64,000 nucleotides of DNA from an uncultured Clostridia bacterium (lineage in GTDB: Bacteria; Bacillota; Clostridia; Oscillospirales; Acutalibacteraceae). The stretch's first letter is position 1; every line of letters starts with the position of its first letter. This document shows, piece after piece, positions 9,940 to 16,528 of this stretch. Below the pieces are notes generated by a model. It was not told the DNA's origin, did not search any database, and saw only the letters and a list, made by a program, of their open reading frames with translations. The translations under genes and the position numbers were made by a program. The stretch lies in the NCBI GenBank assembly GCA_945912145.1, contig CAMEBF010000004.1, positions 1-64,000 of the forward strand, read 5' to 3'.

Positions 9940-12900
9940 TCAGACTTTCACGCCGAAAAGCATACGGAAGAAATTGAGAATGTTCTCAAAGAATTCCAGG
10001 AGAGCGCCGAAGAGACCGCCGCGATTCTCATCGTCGTCTTCATCGGGTGTAGGCGGTACCCAGTCGGGATTAACGGGACAGGTCGCCTTGATTTCAAGCT
10101 CGCCGTTCATGATCTCGGCATTGATCGTCAGCTTACCGGTCTCTTTATCATAGGTGTAGCCCTCGGTGATGAGAACACCGTCCAGATAAACATTGACCGT
10201 GTCAGGCAGGAAATAACCGTCGGGCGCATAGATCTGGGTGAAATACGCCATGCCGTCCTGCGTCACTTCCGCCGTATTGGAGGAACCGCCGTTGCCGATT
10301 GTGATGTAAACGTTGTTGTAACCGGCTGCTGCGCGCTCAGTGATATTGACGTCACCGACAATCGCTTCACCGGGCAGGAAGAAGTCGCCGGTTTCCTTGT
10401 CGTAAACATAATTCGTGATCGGTTTGCCCTTTACGGTTACTCTGACATCATCGGGCAGATCAGCACCGATAAAGGTGTACTCAAAATCTACGCCGTAGGT
10501 TACGACATCGCTGTCTTTTTCACCGGCAACATTCCAATGGATGTTGTAGGTATTGACGGTGTAAACCGCTTCAATCGTGATATTCTTCGCCGGCATGACC
10601 TTATATTCGGTCACCCATTCGCCGGTGTAGCCGACCTTTTCGGGGAGTTCCTTCGTCGGAATGATCTTTCCGTAAGCGAGGGTCTCCGTGTAGACCGTCA
10701 GACCGTCCACTTTCCAGGAAATGACATACTTTCGAGCTGTGTAAACAGCGGTAACAGAAATATCCTTTGCGGGCATCGTACGGTAGCCGGTGTTCCAGGA
10801 AGCGGTGAAGCCCTCTTTCTCGGGGATCTCGGGATTGGGAAGCTCATCACCGAAAGGAACCTCAAGCGTTGTGATGACCTGACCGTCCGCGATATAGGTT
10901 ACACGGTACTTTCTCGCGGATTCGGAGAACTGCGCCGTGTAGACAGCGTCGCCGGTAACAGTCGTGATCTCGGGAGACCAACCGGTGAAAGTAAAGTCTT
11001 TTTCCGCGGTGGATTCCTTAACGGGCGTCGAACCGCCATAAACAGGCGTGGAATCATACGCGCACTGCTGCGTTGTTTCGCCTGCGGGCGTGATCCACTT
11101 GATCGTGTAATTCTTGGGTGTGTAAATCGCCGTGATGGTGATATTATTCGCCGGCATGACGGAGGGAACACCGCCCCAGACGCCGGTATAGCCGGTCTTT
11201 TCGGGAACCGGAATCAGCGTGATAAGCGAACCGTTCGCAACTTCCTGCGTATCAACAGTCACACCGTCCGCAACATAGGTAATGGTGTACTTTCTCGCGG
11301 AGGCCTCATATACAGCCGTGTACGTCACGTCGCCCGTCACGGGGACAATTTCCTTATCCCAACCGATGAACTTATAGTCTTCCGTTACGGAAGAAGTCTT
11401 GTCAGTTGAACCGGTGTAAACGGGAGTTGAATCATAATCCCATTTTTCAGATACCTCACCGTCGCCGACTACCCATGTAACATTATATTTGATCGGCGTA
11501 TAAACTGCGTTAATCGTCAGATCCCTTGCAGGCATCGTCGTGCCCTTGTAATCCCAGACGCCAGTGTAACCGGTCTTTTCGGGGACATTGACTGTGGGGA
11601 TCGCCGTGCCGTAAGCAACGGATTCGGAAGTGACGACTGCGCCGTCCGCTTTCCACGTTACCGTGTAGGAATTGGGTGTCGCAGCAAAAACAGCATAATA
11701 GGTGACGTCGGAATCCGCGATAACGGGAAGCGTTTCGAGAGCTTCACCGCCGGGCGTCGCAGCCCAACCTGCAAATGTGTAGGTGTATTCGGCCGTAGGA
11801 TTCTTCGTCGGGGTTGCGTAGGTGTAGACAGGCGTCTGACCGTTCATAAAGATGGATTCGGACTGCGTCGCGTCATCAATGTACCAGGTAACCGTCCATG
11901 CGCCATAGGTGTAATGTCCCTCAATGATAAGGTCATGATCGGGCATGGTTTCGGGAACATCGACCCACGAACCGGCATAGCCGTAGATCTTCGGAATAGA
12001 GGGCATAGCGGTGATCGGATCGCCGTAACGAAGCGTTGAAGTCTGAACATCCGTATAGGTGACATCGTCCGTATTGTACAGTCTCCATGTGATCTCATAA
12101 GGCAGAGCAATGGTCTTGTACTGCGCCGTATAGGTGGCTTCACCCTTGACCGTGGAAACGGCAGGTGACCAACCGTTGAAAGAATAGACATACATCGTGT
12201 CCGTTGCTCTCGTCGGTGTTGCGCCGTTATAAACAGGTGTGGAGTCGTAGTCGGCGGTATCGGTTTCGAGAACCGTGCCGTCATAGTTCACCCATTTGAT
12301 CGTGTACTGCTTGGGCGTGTAATTGGGCGTGATCTCATAGTCGAACGCAGGCATCGTATCATAGACCTGTTTCCATGTGCCGTCATAACCCTCTTTTGCG
12401 GGGACAGCCTTTTCGGGAATATCTTCACCGTATTTCAGGACCGCGGAATCATAAACGGTACCGTCCTCATACTTCCAGGTCACGGTGTAGCTCTTCGGAG
12501 TCAGATCAAACTGCGCCGTATAAGTAGCATCTTTGGTAGCAAGCTCAACGGCGGGATCCCAACCGGTAAATGTATAGTAATAGCGGGCGTCATCCGTAAT
12601 GACAGGATCGGCGTGCTGCGGAGCGGTATTGTACTTAACGCTGACCGTCTCGCTGACACCGTTGACAACCCATGTGATATTATAATAGTTAATATCATAG
12701 GTCGCCGTCAGGGTGATATTACCCCAGTTGCCGGTGCCGACATGCAACTGTTCCGCCGTATAGGTTGTATTCTTCTTCCAGGAACCGGTATTTGCGGTCT
12801 GGTTGATCCACTGGTTAAAGGTATAGCCGGTCTTGGTCGGCTCTTTGAAGAAGAGGTCATCTTCGATCGTATAGGTCGTCGGCTCTAACGCGTCGCCGCC

Positions 12901-15354
12901 GGTTACGTTATAAGAAATTGTATAGACAATCGGCGTCCAATGCGCGTAAACGGTGGTGTTATCCGCGATTTTCCAAACGGTTTCCGCTGTGATTTCCGTT
13001 GTGCCGTCCGCTAAGAACCAGCCATCGAAATCATAAGCGTCTCTCGTAGGAACGGGCATCTCACCGACAGCGCTGTCATAGGTGACAAACATCGTTGCGG
13101 TCTCACAGGAAGCCTCGGTAAAGGCATCCGTATCAACATTGAAAGTCAGTGTGTAGGTATTGTCGTCCCACTTTGCGGCGAAGGTCACGTCACCGTACAT
13201 ATGTGCGTTTGTCAGCGTCTCGCCGGCATCATAGGTATCGTTTGCCGTCCAGTTGCTGTCCGCCGATACTGCCGTGATCCAGTATTCAAAGGTATAACCT
13301 ACTCTGGTGCAGCTCGGGAAGATAAATTCACTCGTTTCAATATTGTAATCAATCGTTTTCTTCTCATTCAGTGCCATGCCGTCGAACTGACCCTGATTCG
13401 GATCAAACGTCGCCGTGTAGGTGATGGGCGTCCAATGCGCATAATAGGTGGTGTCGCCTGCCGTCTTGTAAACGGTGGCAGCCGTCACCTGTGTGCCGCC
13501 TTCGGCAGCCGTGAACCAACCGTCGAATGTGTAAGCGGTCAGTTCGGGAACGGGCAGCTCACCCAAGGTGCTGTCGTAAGTCGCAGAGATAGAATCTTTC
13601 TCGCAGGTTGCCGTGCCGACGCGATTGCCGTCGTTGAGATCAAGCGTCGCGGTGTAGGAATTGGCAGTCCAGAGTGCCTTGAGCGTCACATCGCCGTATT
13701 TGCCGACAAGAGATGTTCCGGACGCGAGCTTGTCGCCTGTTGTCCAGTTGCCGCTTGCCGTCACGACTTCCCAACCGGCAAAGGTATAGCCCGTTCTGGT
13801 GGGAAGCGGAAGCGTGCCGGATTCGATAGTATAAGTCAGATTGGTCAGGGCGTCGCCGCCGTTGACATCATAAGTAACTGTATAATTGATGGGCGTCCAA
13901 TGGGCGTAAACAGTCGTATTGCTCGCCGTCTGATAAACGGTGGAGGCTGTCACCTGCGTGCCGCCTGTCGCAGCCGTGAACCAACCGTCAAACTGATAAG
14001 CAGTCATGGTGGGTGTGGGCAGTTCGCCGACCGCGCTGTCATAGGTCACGGTCTTGCTCGTTTCGGAGCAGGACGCTGTGCCCTGACGATCCGTATCATT
14101 CAGATTATAGGAAAGCGTATACTGATTGGCTTCCCAGTTCGCCTTAACGGTAATGTTGCCGTACTTGCCGGAAATCGTATTCGTTACCGGTTCGCCGACC
14201 GTCCAGTTGCCGTCCGCGTTGGAGACCGTCCAACCCTTAAAGGTATAACCGGTTCTGGTGGGTGTGGGCAGCGTCAGAGAAGTACTCTCCACATTATAAG
14301 TCTCCGAATCCTGACTGACAGAGCCGCCGTCGGGAGAATAGTTGATGGTGTAAGTGTGCGGCGTCCAGATTGCTCTGACTGCGCCGTTGCCGTTGCCGAA
14401 CGTATAGGTGCTGCCGCTGACAGAACCGACGCCGCTTGTCAGCGTCCAACCTGTGAAATCATACGCCGTCTTGGTGGGAGAAGTGAGCGTGACGGCATTG
14501 CCGGTATATTTACCCGTCACATTATTGACGGTAGAACCGCCGTTGGTATCAACTGTCAGAGTATGGGGGACATAGACCTGAACGTAACCGGAGGTTTTTG
14601 TTACACTTGAATAGCTCGGATTCGCCGTAGACCATGTCGAGCTGAATGTAGTCGTATAATCCTTGGAATCGCTGGTATTATTAAACGATGCTGTAATACT
14701 TTTGCCACTACCGGATAAAGTAACATTTGAACTGGATTTTGACCATGAGGAAGGAGCATTTACCCAACCGACACCGTACTGATCGGTAGCTGAAACAGAT
14801 ACTGTTTTATCTACTTTGGAACCGTCGGTATTGACGTAAACGGGATTCGAAACAGAAAAAGCCGCCGTCGAAACATAAGGATAAAGTGATGTATCGGCAT
14901 TCGTATCTGCATTTCTATCTTTATTACTGTAGTCCTGTTTTCCGGATTCGCCGAGTTTTACCCATGCGCCTGTATTATTGTTGTATACATAGAGCGTGCA
15001 ATAATAGGTAACACCACGAAAACGTCCCATTTTACAGCGTGTATTTACACGAACAGGAAAGCCGCTGCAAGTCCCCTCAAATGTATGCACTTGCTTTGAA
15101 TTCCACATTCCGGAATTCTCGGTAATAACGAGTTCAGTTTCTGAGGAATTGATTCCATTCTGAGTTTTGTAGTAAAGTTTTACATGACCTGCACTTGCTT
15201 TACAGGAGTCTGTAATATTCACTTCAACCTTATACTTATACACGCCATCCGCTGCGTCGGCTTGCGGTGCTAAAATCAAAAAGCACATCAATGCCGTCGC
15301 TAATGCGAGGATAAAGACAAGTATCTGGCGTGAATACTTCTTCACTTTCTGCAT
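9940..15354 (-). CDS. giant secreted InlB B-repeat (Listeria-Bacteroides repeat) protein
   Basis: The 1804-residue protein starts with a signal peptide (ILVFILALATALMCFLILAP.. then ADAADG). A ~260-residue N-terminal region resembles no catalytic domain I recognise. Then come about 19 tandem beta-repeats of 65-85 residues, each ending in a 'YxAxW/F/Y' block, e.g. GYTFxGW..AHWTPI. The first half alternates two B-repeat variants. The second half alternates a 'YGxxIPxxxVPEKTGYTG..TMPA' unit with a 'YDSTPVYxG..FTGWSPE' unit. It ends in a small beta domain, an acidic PPTPDEDDDE linker and a hydrophobic amphipathic tail (LLEFFENILNFFRMLF). A surface or extracellular adhesive/spacer role is inferred. 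No LPXTG is present. Confidence 0.88.
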   Translation of the reverse strand: MQKVKKYSRQILVFILALATALMCFLILAPQADAADGVYKYKVEVNITDSCKASAGHVKLYYKTQNGINSSETELVITENSGMWNSKQVHTFEGTCSGFPVRVNTRCKMGRFRGVTYYCTLYVYNNNTGAWVKLGESGKQDYSNKDRNADTNADTSLYPYVSTAAFSVSNPVYVNTDGSKVDKTVSVSATDQYGVGWVNAPSSWSKSSSNVTLSGSGKSITASFNNTSDSKDYTTTFSSTWSTANPSYSSVTKTSGYVQVYVPHTLTVDTNGGSTVNNVTGKYTGNAVTLTSPTKTAYDFTGWTLTSGVGSVSGSTYTFGNGNGAVRAIWTPHTYTINYSPDGGSVSQDSETYNVESTSLTLPTPTRTGYTFKGWTVSNADGNWTVGEPVTNTISGKYGNITVKANWEANQYTLSYNLNDTDRQGTASCSETSKTVTYDSAVGELPTPTMTAYQFDGWFTAATGGTQVTASTVYQTASNTTVYAHWTPINYTVTYDVNGGDALTNLTYTIESGTLPLPTRTGYTFAGWEVVTASGNWTTGDKLASGTSLVGKYGDVTLKALWTANSYTATLDLNDGNRVGTATCEKDSISATYDSTLGELPVPELTAYTFDGWFTAAEGGTQVTAATVYKTAGDTTYYAHWTPITYTATFDPNQGQFDGMALNEKKTIDYNIETSEFIFPSCTRVGYTFEYWITAVSADSNWTANDTYDAGETLTNAHMYGDVTFAAKWDDNTYTLTFNVDTDAFTEASCETATMFVTYDSAVGEMPVPTRDAYDFDGWFLADGTTEITAETVWKIADNTTVYAHWTPIVYTISYNVTGGDALEPTTYTIEDDLFFKEPTKTGYTFNQWINQTANTGSWKKNTTYTAEQLHVGTGNWGNITLTATYDINYYNITWVVNGVSETVSVKYNTAPQHADPVITDDARYYYTFTGWDPAVELATKDATYTAQFDLTPKSYTVTWKYEDGTVYDSAVLKYGEDIPEKAVPAKEGYDGTWKQVYDTMPAFDYEITPNYTPKQYTIKWVNYDGTVLETDTADYDSTPVYNGATPTRATDTMYVYSFNGWSPAVSTVKGEATYTAQYKTIALPYEITWRLYNTDDVTYTDVQTSTLRYGDPITAMPSIPKIYGYAGSWVDVPETMPDHDLIIEGHYTYGAWTVTWYIDDATQSESIFMNGQTPVYTYATPTKNPTAEYTYTFAGWAATPGGEALETLPVIADSDVTYYAVFAATPNSYTVTWKADGAVVTSESVAYGTAIPTVNVPEKTGYTGVWDYKGTTMPARDLTINAVYTPIKYNVTWVVGDGEVSEKWDYDSTPVYTGSTDKTSSVTEDYKFIGWDKEIVPVTGDVTYTAVYEASARKYTITYVADGVTVDTQEVANGSLITLIPVPEKTGYTGVWGGVPSVMPANNITITAIYTPKNYTIKWITPAGETTQQCAYDSTPVYGGSTPVKESTAEKDFTFTGWSPEITTVTGDAVYTAQFSESARKYRVTYIADGQVITTLEVPFGDELPNPEIPEKEGFTASWNTGYRTMPAKDISVTAVYTARKYVISWKVDGLTVYTETLAYGKIIPTKELPEKVGYTGEWVTEYKVMPAKNITIEAVYTVNTYNIHWNVAGEKDSDVVTYGVDFEYTFIGADLPDDVRVTVKGKPITNYVYDKETGDFFLPGEAIVGDVNITERAAAGYNNVYITIGNGGSSNTAEVTQDGMAYFTQIYAPDGYFLPDTVNVYLDGVLITEGYTYDKETGKLTINAEIMNGELEIKATCPVNPDWVPPTPDEDDDENRGGLFGALLEFFENILNFFRMLFGVKV

Positions 15355-15450: not shown

Positions 15451-15541
15451 TAGAATTTGCACATTTTTTTCAAAATAATTCTATGTTTTTTATCACCGCA
15501 AAACAAATAAGTTTGTCCTTGCAAACGACTTACGGCAGGCT

Positions 15542-15682
15542 TGTAGGGGCGATTCTCAATCGCCCGCTGCGCAGCAGAACGGCGGAACGCCGTTTCCAAT
15601 CACATAATTGAATTGGTTTAACAAAAAAACGCCTTACGTCGTTGCACCTGACGGTGCCGGGCGATTACGAATCGCCCCTACA
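15542..15682. repeat. 141-bp MITE-like element with 25-bp terminal inverted repeats
   Basis: The ends TGTAGGGGCGATTCTCAATC.. and its near-perfect reverse complement on the right differ at only two positions over 25 nt. Each end is itself a hairpin (GGGCGATT/AATCGCCC). The interior has further small palindromes and no ORF. It lies in the gene-poor island between 15.36 and 16.45 kb. No clear target-site duplication is visible. Confidence 0.75.
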
Positions 15683-15732
15683 GGTTCGGCATCGGTTTAT
15701 TATGATTTTTAAGATCATTTTCCATAAAAAAA

Positions 15733-15757: not shown

Positions 15758-15786
15758 TTGACAAATCCTGTTTTCCGGGTTATAAT
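15758..15786 (+). promoter_or_regulatory. consensus promoter of a short antisense RNA
   Basis: TTGACA-17 nt-TATAAT, a perfect sigma-A promoter, faces the promoter at 16038-16066. No protein-coding frame follows it. Confidence 0.7.
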
Positions 15787-15792
15787 ATAGTC

Positions 15793-15880
15793 AAGAGGTA
15801 ACCGTTTAAAGCGGTTAGCTTAGATTGTGATTATTTTATAATGACAACCGTCACTTTCCCGAGTGGCGGTTGTTGCTTTT
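15793..15880 (+). ncRNA. candidate antitoxin RNA (type I TA, antisense to the 29-codon ORF)
   Basis: A short RNA of about 88 nt is predicted from the promoter at 15758-15786 to the terminator hairpin at 15844-15873 with its UUGUUGCUUUU tail. Its 5' part carries UAACCG-UUUAAAG-CGGUUA, a stem-loop also present in the facing transcript (15969-16001 region). Its 3' part is fully complementary to the last ~10 codons and terminator of the small ORF at 15851-15940. No ribosome site or ORF was found in it. The antitoxin role is inferred from architecture alone. Confidence 0.5.
15844..15873. terminator. shared bidirectional hairpin of the convergent small-RNA pair
   Basis: A 12-bp stem (ACAACCGTCACT / AGTGGCGGTTGT, one G-T pair) closes a TTCCCG loop. 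Plus-strand transcripts leave it into a U-rich TTGCTTTT tract; the minus-strand side is weaker (TCATTATAAAATAAT). It overlaps the last codons (NRHSGK) of the small ORF on the minus strand. Confidence 0.75.
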
Positions 15881-15940
15881 AACACGGAATTGGAGCGTAT
15901 ATGTTCGTTTTCCAATATGAAAAGTAAATGTTAAAATCAT
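15851..15940 (-). CDS. 29-residue peptide, candidate type I toxin
   Basis: The peptide is MILTFTFHIGKRTYTLQFRV plus KSNNRHSGK. Hydrophobic and polar residues alternate (ILTFTFHI..TYTLQF), suggesting an amphipathic beta strand or hairpin with a basic tail, not the single helix usual for Fst/TxpA-type toxins. Translation is supported by a perfect AAGGAGGTGA 5 nt before the ATG, a consensus promoter at 16038-16066 and a defined terminator. The Shine-Dalgarno is sequestered by an adjacent CCTCC (stem CCTCC-GGAA-GGAGG). The same frame is open to 16066, but that extension covers the promoter, so the short start is preferred. The function is not known. Confidence 0.55.
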   Translation of the reverse strand: MILTFTFHIGKRTYTLQFRVKSNNRHSGK

Positions 15941-16030
15941 GCGTGTCACCTCCTTCCGGAGGAAATACGCTAACCGCCTTATTCTCGGTAAACCTCTTGA
16001 CTGTCCCCTACAATCCGACAGGATTCGGGA
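15941..16030 (-). promoter_or_regulatory. structured 5' leader of the 29-codon ORF
   Basis: The ~90-nt leader starts with a hairpin (CTGTCCC..GGGGACAG, about 16001-16031). It then has the GTCAAGAGGT..ACCG..CGGTTAGC element shared in inverted orientation with 15790-15819. It ends in an SD-sequestering hairpin CCTCC-GGAA-GGAGG (about 15949-15962). Such leaders hold type I toxin mRNAs translationally silent; here that role is inferred. Confidence 0.5.
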
Positions 16031-16074: not shown

Positions 16075-16204
16075 GCGTCGCATTGCGACGCGGTGAAGTT
16101 TGTCCCTGCGGGACAAGTGAAGCAGCCCTGCGGGCTGTGAAGCATCAGCTTCGCCGACATGAAGTTTTTGCCTGCGGAAAAAGTTTCGGAAGCCCTGCGG
16201 GCTT
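16075..16204. repeat. array of mini-palindromes spaced by (G)TGAAG
   Basis: Successive short hairpins (GCGTCGC-ATT-GCGACGC; TTGTCCC-TGC-GGGACAA; CAGCCC-TGC-GGGCTG; an imperfect CAGCTTCGCCGA; TTTTTGCC-TGC-GGAAAAA; AAGCCC-TGC-GGGCTT) are separated by GTGAAG or TGAAG. The stems differ in sequence while the separator and the TGC loop are kept. No ORF with a ribosome site is present. Confidence 0.7.
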
Positions 16205-16245
16205 AGATTTATAAAAAAGTCACAGCACTTTTCGTGCCGTGACTT
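16185..16245. repeat. composite repeat: AAGCCC palindrome plus GTCACGGCAC hairpin, copy 1
   Basis: The exact reverse complement of AAGCCCGCAGGGCTTCCGAA (16185-16204) is followed by GATTTATAAAAAA and the hairpin GTCACAGCAC..GTGCCGTGAC (16219-16243). The same two parts in the same relative order, inverted, are at 26505-26564. Confidence 0.75.
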
Positions 16246-16251
16246 GACGAA

Positions 16252-16420
16252 TGAGATATGGCTGCGCAATATGATATACGGCTGCGACCGCATGATATAT
16301 TTTCACTTTGTAAAAATATGATATAATATCCGTTCCACATAGACCGCAGGTCTATATCATCTGCGAAGCAGATATCATACCGGAGGTATATCATCCGTTC
16401 CGACAGGAACGGATATCATT
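16252..16420. repeat. array of mini-palindromes spaced by ATGATAT / ATATCAT
   Basis: The heptamer ATGATAT occurs at 16271, 16292 and 16318. Its reverse complement ATATCAT occurs at 16354, 16372, 16388 and 16413. Between them lie 9-30 nt segments, most of them small hairpins (AGACC-GCA-GGTCT, CTGC-GAA-GCAG, ACC-GGA-GGT, CCGTTCC-GACA-GGAACGG). The array is thus divided into two halves of opposite orientation. No coding potential was found. Confidence 0.8.
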
Positions 16421-16421
16421 G

Positions 16422-16451
16422 AAAAAAGCACTTCCGAAGAAGTGCTTTTTT
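16422..16451. terminator. bidirectional terminator after tRNA-Lys
   Basis: AAAAAAGCACTT and AAGTGCTTTTTT form a 12-bp stem over CCGAAG, immediately beside the 3' end of tRNA-Lys. It should end the secG-tRNA transcript on the minus strand. Confidence 0.85.
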
Positions 16452-16452
16452 C

Positions 16453-16528
16453 TGGTGACTCAGCGGGGATTCGAACCCCGGACACCCTGCTTAAAAGGCA
16501 GGTGCTCTGCCGACTGAGCTACTGAATC
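16453..16528 (-). tRNA. tRNA-Lys (anticodon TTT), CCA encoded
   Basis: The 76-nt sequence folds as a complete cloverleaf: acceptor GATTCAG/CTGAGTC, D arm starting GCTC, anticodon stem CTGCC around loop CTTTTAA (anticodon TTT), T arm CGGGG-TTCGAAT-CCCCG, discriminator A and encoded CCA. It begins 21 nt after the secG stop codon and shares its strand, so the two are probably co-transcribed. Confidence 0.97.

Follow-up and report, generated by a model that had tools for sequence, protein, structure and literature searches.

An array of tagged hairpins behind a tRNA-Lys terminator in a Clostridia genome: a candidate small mobile DNA element that includes the Gut-1 motif

In a stretch of 64,000 nucleotides from the genome of an uncultured Clostridia bacterium (assembly GCA_945912145.1, contig CAMEBF010000004.1, positions 1 to 64,000; this whole stretch is referred to as the window), a constant heptamer separates a row of short palindromes with different stems, and its orientation flips in the middle of the row. 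The locus raises the question of what kind of genetic entity keeps its separators fixed while its hairpins are free to change.

The array and its surroundings

The heptamer ATGATAT is present at 16271, 16292 and 16318, and its reverse complement ATATCAT at 16354, 16372, 16388 and 16413. An earlier note on this DNA, made from the letters alone, had given all seven positions and orientations exactly, together with the stems of four hairpins (which lie at 16341-16353, 16361-16371, 16379-16387 and 16395-16412) and the flip of orientation at the centre, which falls between 16324 and 16354. The array is genuine, and chance does not account for it: the window contains 23 heptamers against 7.6 +/- 2.8 expected, and seven of them are clustered in 170 nt, where 200 dinucleotide shuffles of the window gave a maximum of three. 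Beyond the array as first noted, there are an eighth, degenerate copy of the heptamer, ATGAGAT, at 16251 and three further hairpins on the left side (16258-16270, 16278-16291 and 16299-16317); moreover, one arm of the last hairpin (16395-16412) recurs in the centre as AATATCCGTTCC at 16325-16336. The array is the core of an element of about 170 bp, located directly behind the terminator of a tRNA-Lys gene. Read on the minus strand, the order is tRNA-Lys, terminator hairpin, spacer, hairpins 1-4 with ATGATAT, the arm copy and hairpins 5-7 with ATATCAT; the features are as follows.

16453-16528, minus strand: gene for tRNA-Lys (TTT), immediately upstream of the element (ARAGORN, Rfam)
16421-16452, minus strand: hp0, the tRNA terminator, a perfect 14-bp hairpin with A-tract and T-tract, abutting the array
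16413-16419, minus strand: outer left spacer, ATGATAT on the minus strand
16395-16412, minus strand: hairpin 1, with CCGTTCC arms, the outer of which has a second copy in the centre
16388-16394, minus strand: spacer copy between hairpins 1 and 2
16379-16387, minus strand: hairpin 2, ACC/GGT
16372-16378, minus strand: spacer copy between hairpins 2 and 3
16361-16371, minus strand: hairpin 3, CTGC/GCAG
16354-16360, minus strand: spacer copy between hairpins 3 and 4
16341-16353, minus strand: hairpin 4, AGACC/GGTCT
16349-16421, minus strand: match to Rfam RF01706 (Gut-1), 54.9 bits against a cut-off of 50, covering hairpins 1-3 and spacers
16325-16336, minus strand: centre, where the hairpin 1 arm appears for a second time; this gives arm 1 a choice between a local partner and one beyond hairpins 2-4
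16318-16324, plus strand: spacer copy, flipped orientation
16299-16317, minus strand: hairpin 5, ATTTTCA/TAAAAAT
16292-16298, plus strand: spacer copy, flipped
16278-16291, minus strand: hairpin 6, imperfect, ACGG/CCGC
16271-16277, plus strand: spacer copy, flipped
16258-16270, minus strand: hairpin 7, imperfect, ATGGC/GCAAT
16251-16257, plus strand: ATGAGAT, a degenerate spacer at the outer right end
16093-16214, plus strand: neighbouring related array with spacers GTGAAGT, GTGAAGC and ATGAAGT; Gut-1 match below threshold (36.2 bits)

Copies, layout and putative sites of insertion

The right part of the element exceeds, on the minus strand, the gathering cut-off of the Gut-1 covariance model. 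Gut-1 was originally described from human gut metagenomes as a likely noncoding RNA without assigned function (Weinberg et al. 2010, PMC2864571). The source genome contains 47 Gut-1 matches at E <= 10, nine of them over the cut-off, so that the array is one of many and not the single copy that the earlier note had held out, together with invariance, as the contrary outcome; pairs of ATGATAT in direct order, 6-30 nt apart, number 33 in this genome versus 1 for a reversed-pattern control. The neighbouring GTGAAGT-type array (16093-16214) is a high-copy cousin in the same genome. Gut-1 matches were found in 33 of 60 relatives, with 1 to 48 per genome, while several of these relatives belonging to the same genus have none; the spread is therefore patchy, from 0 to 48. 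Nor is the motif restricted to the human gut, since genomes from deer and sheep gut are among the carriers of an array at the orthologous site.

Sixty-four distinct full elements were parsed from the loci around the best Gut-1 matches in relatives, found by means of the Gut-1 model and a P1/P1'' filter. They have a fixed layout, consisting of a terminator hairpin, a hairpin array, a centre and a second array with reversed spacer; in nearly all arrays the spacers come first and the reversed spacers after. A perfect hairpin of at least 8 bp, mostly 13-20, abuts one end in 55 of the 64. A tRNA end lies at most 130 nt upstream in 20 of the 64, a looser text pattern that combines a CCA end with an A-tract hairpin matches 33 of 63, and several more follow, by eye, the 3' end of a tmRNA. 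All 64 repeat the outer hairpin 1 arm in their centre, having been selected for at least 7 nt of such repetition; the median length is 11 nt and 41 different arm sequences occur.

The tRNA-Lys/secG site was compared across species through a scan with the neighbouring ParE-like protein, which gave 80 loci. The array is absent in L113, L114 and L119 (84-87% ParE identity), while the same layout is present with the spacer ATGAAAT in L115 and L118, with GTATGTAATC in L110 and L112 and with ACATCGTT in L111. Within the genus and its neighbours the site is thus either empty or occupied by one of several tag families, which is the pattern expected from insertion at a preferred landing site and not the invariance named in the earlier note as the contrary outcome. 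The earlier note had proposed that a mobile unit might be involved and that arrays might differ between strains at one site; the first proposal agrees with these loci, and the second holds in the form of differences between species. Pattern searches revealed a spacer family with a 10-mer in four relatives, and for the two other spacer families all six loci examined adjoin a tRNA terminator (five for the 10-mer, and the single match of an 8-mer).

A recent expansion is visible in another genome of the same genus, G003, which contains about 40 copies of a cousin with spacer GTGATAT, 89-97% identical and with unrelated flanks, many of them located right after stop codons. No target duplication was seen by eye in the flanks of these copies. 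At one locus of this genome (L529), the cousin has apparently landed in the end of a reading frame and supplies its stop codon (AAA CAG TAA).

Dispersed copies, presence or absence at one site across species and the recent burst, the last seen for the GTGATAT cousin and not for the subfamily of the window, support a mobile element. We consider it somewhat probable, from sequence comparison, that the array represents a small mobile DNA element, non-autonomous and present in many copies, whose hairpins would act as folded single-stranded DNA and whose spacer would be a recognition tag. Such an element would insert beside terminator hairpins, with a preference for the ones that follow tRNA and tmRNA genes. 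In each half, the DNA strand reading ATATCAT or ATTTCAC may fold into successive mini-hairpins whose loops are GNA or GNNA. A transposase or an enzyme of strand transfer would recognise the sequence of the single-stranded spacer, its tag, but only the shape of the hairpins; this would explain a tag that is constant and changes as a set in both halves, and stems that need only pair. Through the arm copy in the centre, the first hairpin may alternate between two pairings, and the two ends of the element would be equivalent.

Folding, stem change and alternative explanations

On the ATWTCAY strand, 222 distinct hairpins are 95.7% paired, compared with 53.6% when the arms are re-dealt. The right-half units, which lie outside the coverage of the Gut-1 model and were taken without score filter, provide a test independent of the model; alone they are 91.6% paired, versus 54.2% with re-dealt arms and 42.9% after letter shuffling. 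Other features were counted on this strand as well: G.T exceeds A.C by 31 to 3 (p = 8e-7), triloops are GNA in 86 of 121 cases and tetraloops GNNA in 58 of 87, equally divided between GNRA and GNYA (29:29), the loop is closed by a C-G pair in 196 of the 222 hairpins, and all 18 tandem GA/GA mismatches are found in a pyrimidine-GA-purine context. In DNA, hairpin loops of the GNA and GNNA types are the especially stable ones when a C-G pair closes them, and in RNA tetraloops GNRA is favoured. ATWTCAY is read on the plus strand of the window in the left half and on the minus strand in the right half; the polarity of loops and mismatches supports a model in which one strand would be folded per half. 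Counting against the proposed element, the loops of the two other spacer families have the opposite polarity with respect to the tRNA. The predicted folded form is strictly conserved among copies and the hairpin sequences are not; with 222 different paired hairpins and spacers in agreement in 61 of 64 elements, the proposal that stems vary around a fixed spacer is borne out.

The same data were considered with respect to a structured RNA, as the Rfam family assumes, namely a noncoding or tRNA 3' flanking RNA whose hairpins and UGA-centred spacers bind a protein. This explanation accords with the Gut-1 match over the cut-off and with the original description as a likely noncoding RNA (PMC2864571), with the pairing that includes G.T wobbles and GA tandems, with the strong terminator and with the RNA annotation having come first; the minus strand of the array also has a predicted RNA fold of -58.7 kcal/mol (z -4.4), better than all 200 of its own shuffles. 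However, the element sits behind the terminator, the tetraloops have no preference for GNRA, and the arrays occur patchily and in many copies. What speaks most strongly against one functional transcript is the split strand polarity: since good loops, wobbles and GA tandems switch strand between the halves, no single transcript is favoured throughout. An RNA function is accordingly judged rather unlikely, although it is the alternative that survives best.

Palindromes might also be made or kept perfect by mutation, through hairpin-templated or template-switch repair, without selection for the fold and with the spacers as leftovers. Stems that differ widely between copies and yet are paired, whole units that are exchangeable and a first hairpin whose tip varies between close copies would all suit such a process, but it does not predict GNA loops, C-G closing pairs, tandem GA or a G.T bias on one strand, and templated repair would remove mismatches. 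Array stems were, moreover, hardly altered in the recent G003 burst: the four array stems were copied essentially unchanged and the differences are mainly in loops, first hairpin and tail. A mutational origin is therefore quite improbable, and the suggestion in the earlier note of a process that creates palindromes, if taken to act anew with every copying, is not supported by these roughly 40 copies. Over longer times the picture is different. In the 15 elements of the subfamily of the window, spacer and core are shared, while 8, 10 and 13 different sequences occur at hairpins 2, 3 and 4; in L076 and L239 the usual hairpin 5 is found in position 6. Because stems of the burst are unchanged and units are exchanged over longer times, the main spreading process is duplication of whole elements, with stems that drift slowly while pairing is kept, and with units sometimes exchanged or inserted. 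The interpretation offered in the earlier note is thus supported in part.

A chromosomal insulator, in which clustered sites for termination or topology follow stable-RNA genes with strong transcription and are kept for the benefit of the host, would explain the preference for tRNA and tmRNA 3' flanks; a gyrase-binding role has been proposed for BIMEs, to which such a function can be likened. Close relatives, however, lack an array at the same tRNA, and related genomes contain anywhere from 0 to 48 copies, which makes this role very improbable.

The spacers of the 64 elements (n=445) are GTGAAAT, GTGATAT, ATGATAT and ATGAAAT only, a set defined by the search criterion. Their fifth position (A/T) is the same in both halves in 61 of 64 elements, and in all spacer families seen the right spacers are the reverse complement of the left ones. 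This last feature would be expected if left and right spacers paired and the element formed a ladder of four-way junctions, with concerted spacers as base-pair covariation, but we give this explanation hardly any weight, as the individual partners should then covary and the spacers within one half are all alike, which pairing alone does not require. Indeed, nested left-right partners agree at the first position (A/G) in 56 of 93 cases versus 56.6 in shuffles; because they covary no more than the element average, left-right base pairing is not the cause of spacer agreement, which is due either to a shared reader of the spacer or to common descent within a copy.

Candidate enzymes, known systems and minor observations

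Four enzyme families (Y1, Y2, IS110 and group II maturase) were tested as mobilisers of the proposed element, and the mobilising enzyme was not found among them. Mobilisation by a RAYT or IS200/605 enzyme was rejected: no Y1 gene (PF01797) is present in the source genome, Y1 is not linked to copy number in the 60 relatives, and PF01797 was not found in G059, G039, G047 and G013, which carry 21-48 copies. The reverse transcriptase of group IIC introns was also discarded, its maturase family being absent from the source genome and present in only 5 of 60 genomes, as were IS110 and Y2/IS91, which are absent from the source genome and absent or rare elsewhere; none of the four families varies with copy number. 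Among the fetched loci, no longer element was seen that shares these ends, as an autonomous partner would.

Among known systems, Gut-1 (RF01706; PMC2864571) corresponds to hairpins 1-3 with their UGAAAU-type spacers; the motif covers no more than 77 nt of a longer element with two arms, is found in tens of copies per genome and outside the human gut, and has sister families with other spacers. Its expression as RNA was assumed in the description. REP elements and BIMEs are palindromes tagged by GTAG/CGTC, for which single-strand recognition of tag and hairpin is the model (PMC3733652, PMC8266576); the REP element is a folded single strand whose tag is recognised by its Y1 enzyme (PMC8266576). 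The element resembles them as a set of short, multi-copy extragenic palindromes, found downstream of genes in opposite orientations, in which an unpaired tag is constant and the stems vary. In place of an unpaired GTAG/CGTC on a palindrome of 20-40 bp, however, it has RTGAWAT, or another 8- or 10-mer, and palindromes mostly of 9-20 nt, six to eight per element and in fixed order; it is also tied to tRNA terminators and has no accompanying RAYT (Y1) gene. It is therefore not a REP element, given its tag, its architecture and the missing Y1 gene, nor an IS200/IS605 element, as the source genome has no Y1 HUH transposase.

Miniature transposons (MITEs) are comparable for their dispersed copies of about 170-400 bp with inverted ends and no coding sequence, and for recent bursts such as that of the approximately 40 near-identical cousin copies in unrelated flanks of G003. 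The ends of the element are, conversely, hairpin arrays and not one inverted repeat, no cognate transposase was found among the four enzyme families tested, and by eye no target duplication was seen. Group IIC introns insert directly behind terminator hairpins. The element shares this position, but it has no intron structure, and the maturase family is lacking in the source genome and in most carriers.

We tentatively suggest, as a broader possibility that we would not yet call probable, that these arrays belong to a superfamily of miniature transposons of gut Clostridia, which would use a folded single-stranded DNA route without a known Y1, Y2, IS110 or group II enzyme, with a family-specific tag between free hairpins and with tRNA terminators as shared landing site. 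An orphan family of noncoding RNA would then become part of a class of mobile elements with several interchangeable tags, and its dozens of natural variants differ freely in sequence while keeping their shape. Two questions can be addressed experimentally, namely whether Gut-1 is an RNA or a folded DNA and which enzyme reads the tag. The family is also a warning that, where a hairpin motif is present in many copies, covariation does not necessarily point to an RNA.

Plasmids and isolated phages were searched for array carriage and gave no match. Pattern scans of IMG/VR gave mostly chance matches, with real arrays in four viral contigs. The phage-like IMG/VR contig L320 contains three heptamer-tagged arrays between genes, near 1516, 2620 and 4307, and encodes what by eye look like portal and capsid proteins; these arrays suggest that entry into phages or prophages also occurs. 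In a second IMG/VR contig, L336, isolate-derived by its name, an element with the layout of the window is located at 13093-13260, directly behind a tRNA-Ser and its terminator, and this isolate is a possible cultured carrier.

In genome G009, a symmetric element (L101-L109) has the palindromes CAATAATTTA...TAAATTATTG at both ends, and its tips differ between otherwise near-identical copies (GCGAAGC, TCTTTGA, GCAACGGAGTTGC and others). The window contains another intergenic inverted repeat at 15525-15690, GTAGGGGCGATTCTCAATCGCCC ... GGGCGATTACGAATCGCCCCTACAG, and a similar motif, GTAGGGGCGGTCATTGATCGCC, follows an array in the viral contig L320. A repeated cassette, GTCAAGAGGTAACCGTTTAAAGCGGTTAGC ... 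CACCTCCTTCCGGAGGAAATACGCTAACCGCC, is present at 15767-16030 of the window and in L027, another contig of the source genome, in both cases beside a GTGAAGT array. Finally, positions 9940-15354 encode a secreted-looking protein of 1804 residues, largely made of repeats with GYTFxGW motifs that may be of the Listeria-Bacteroides type.
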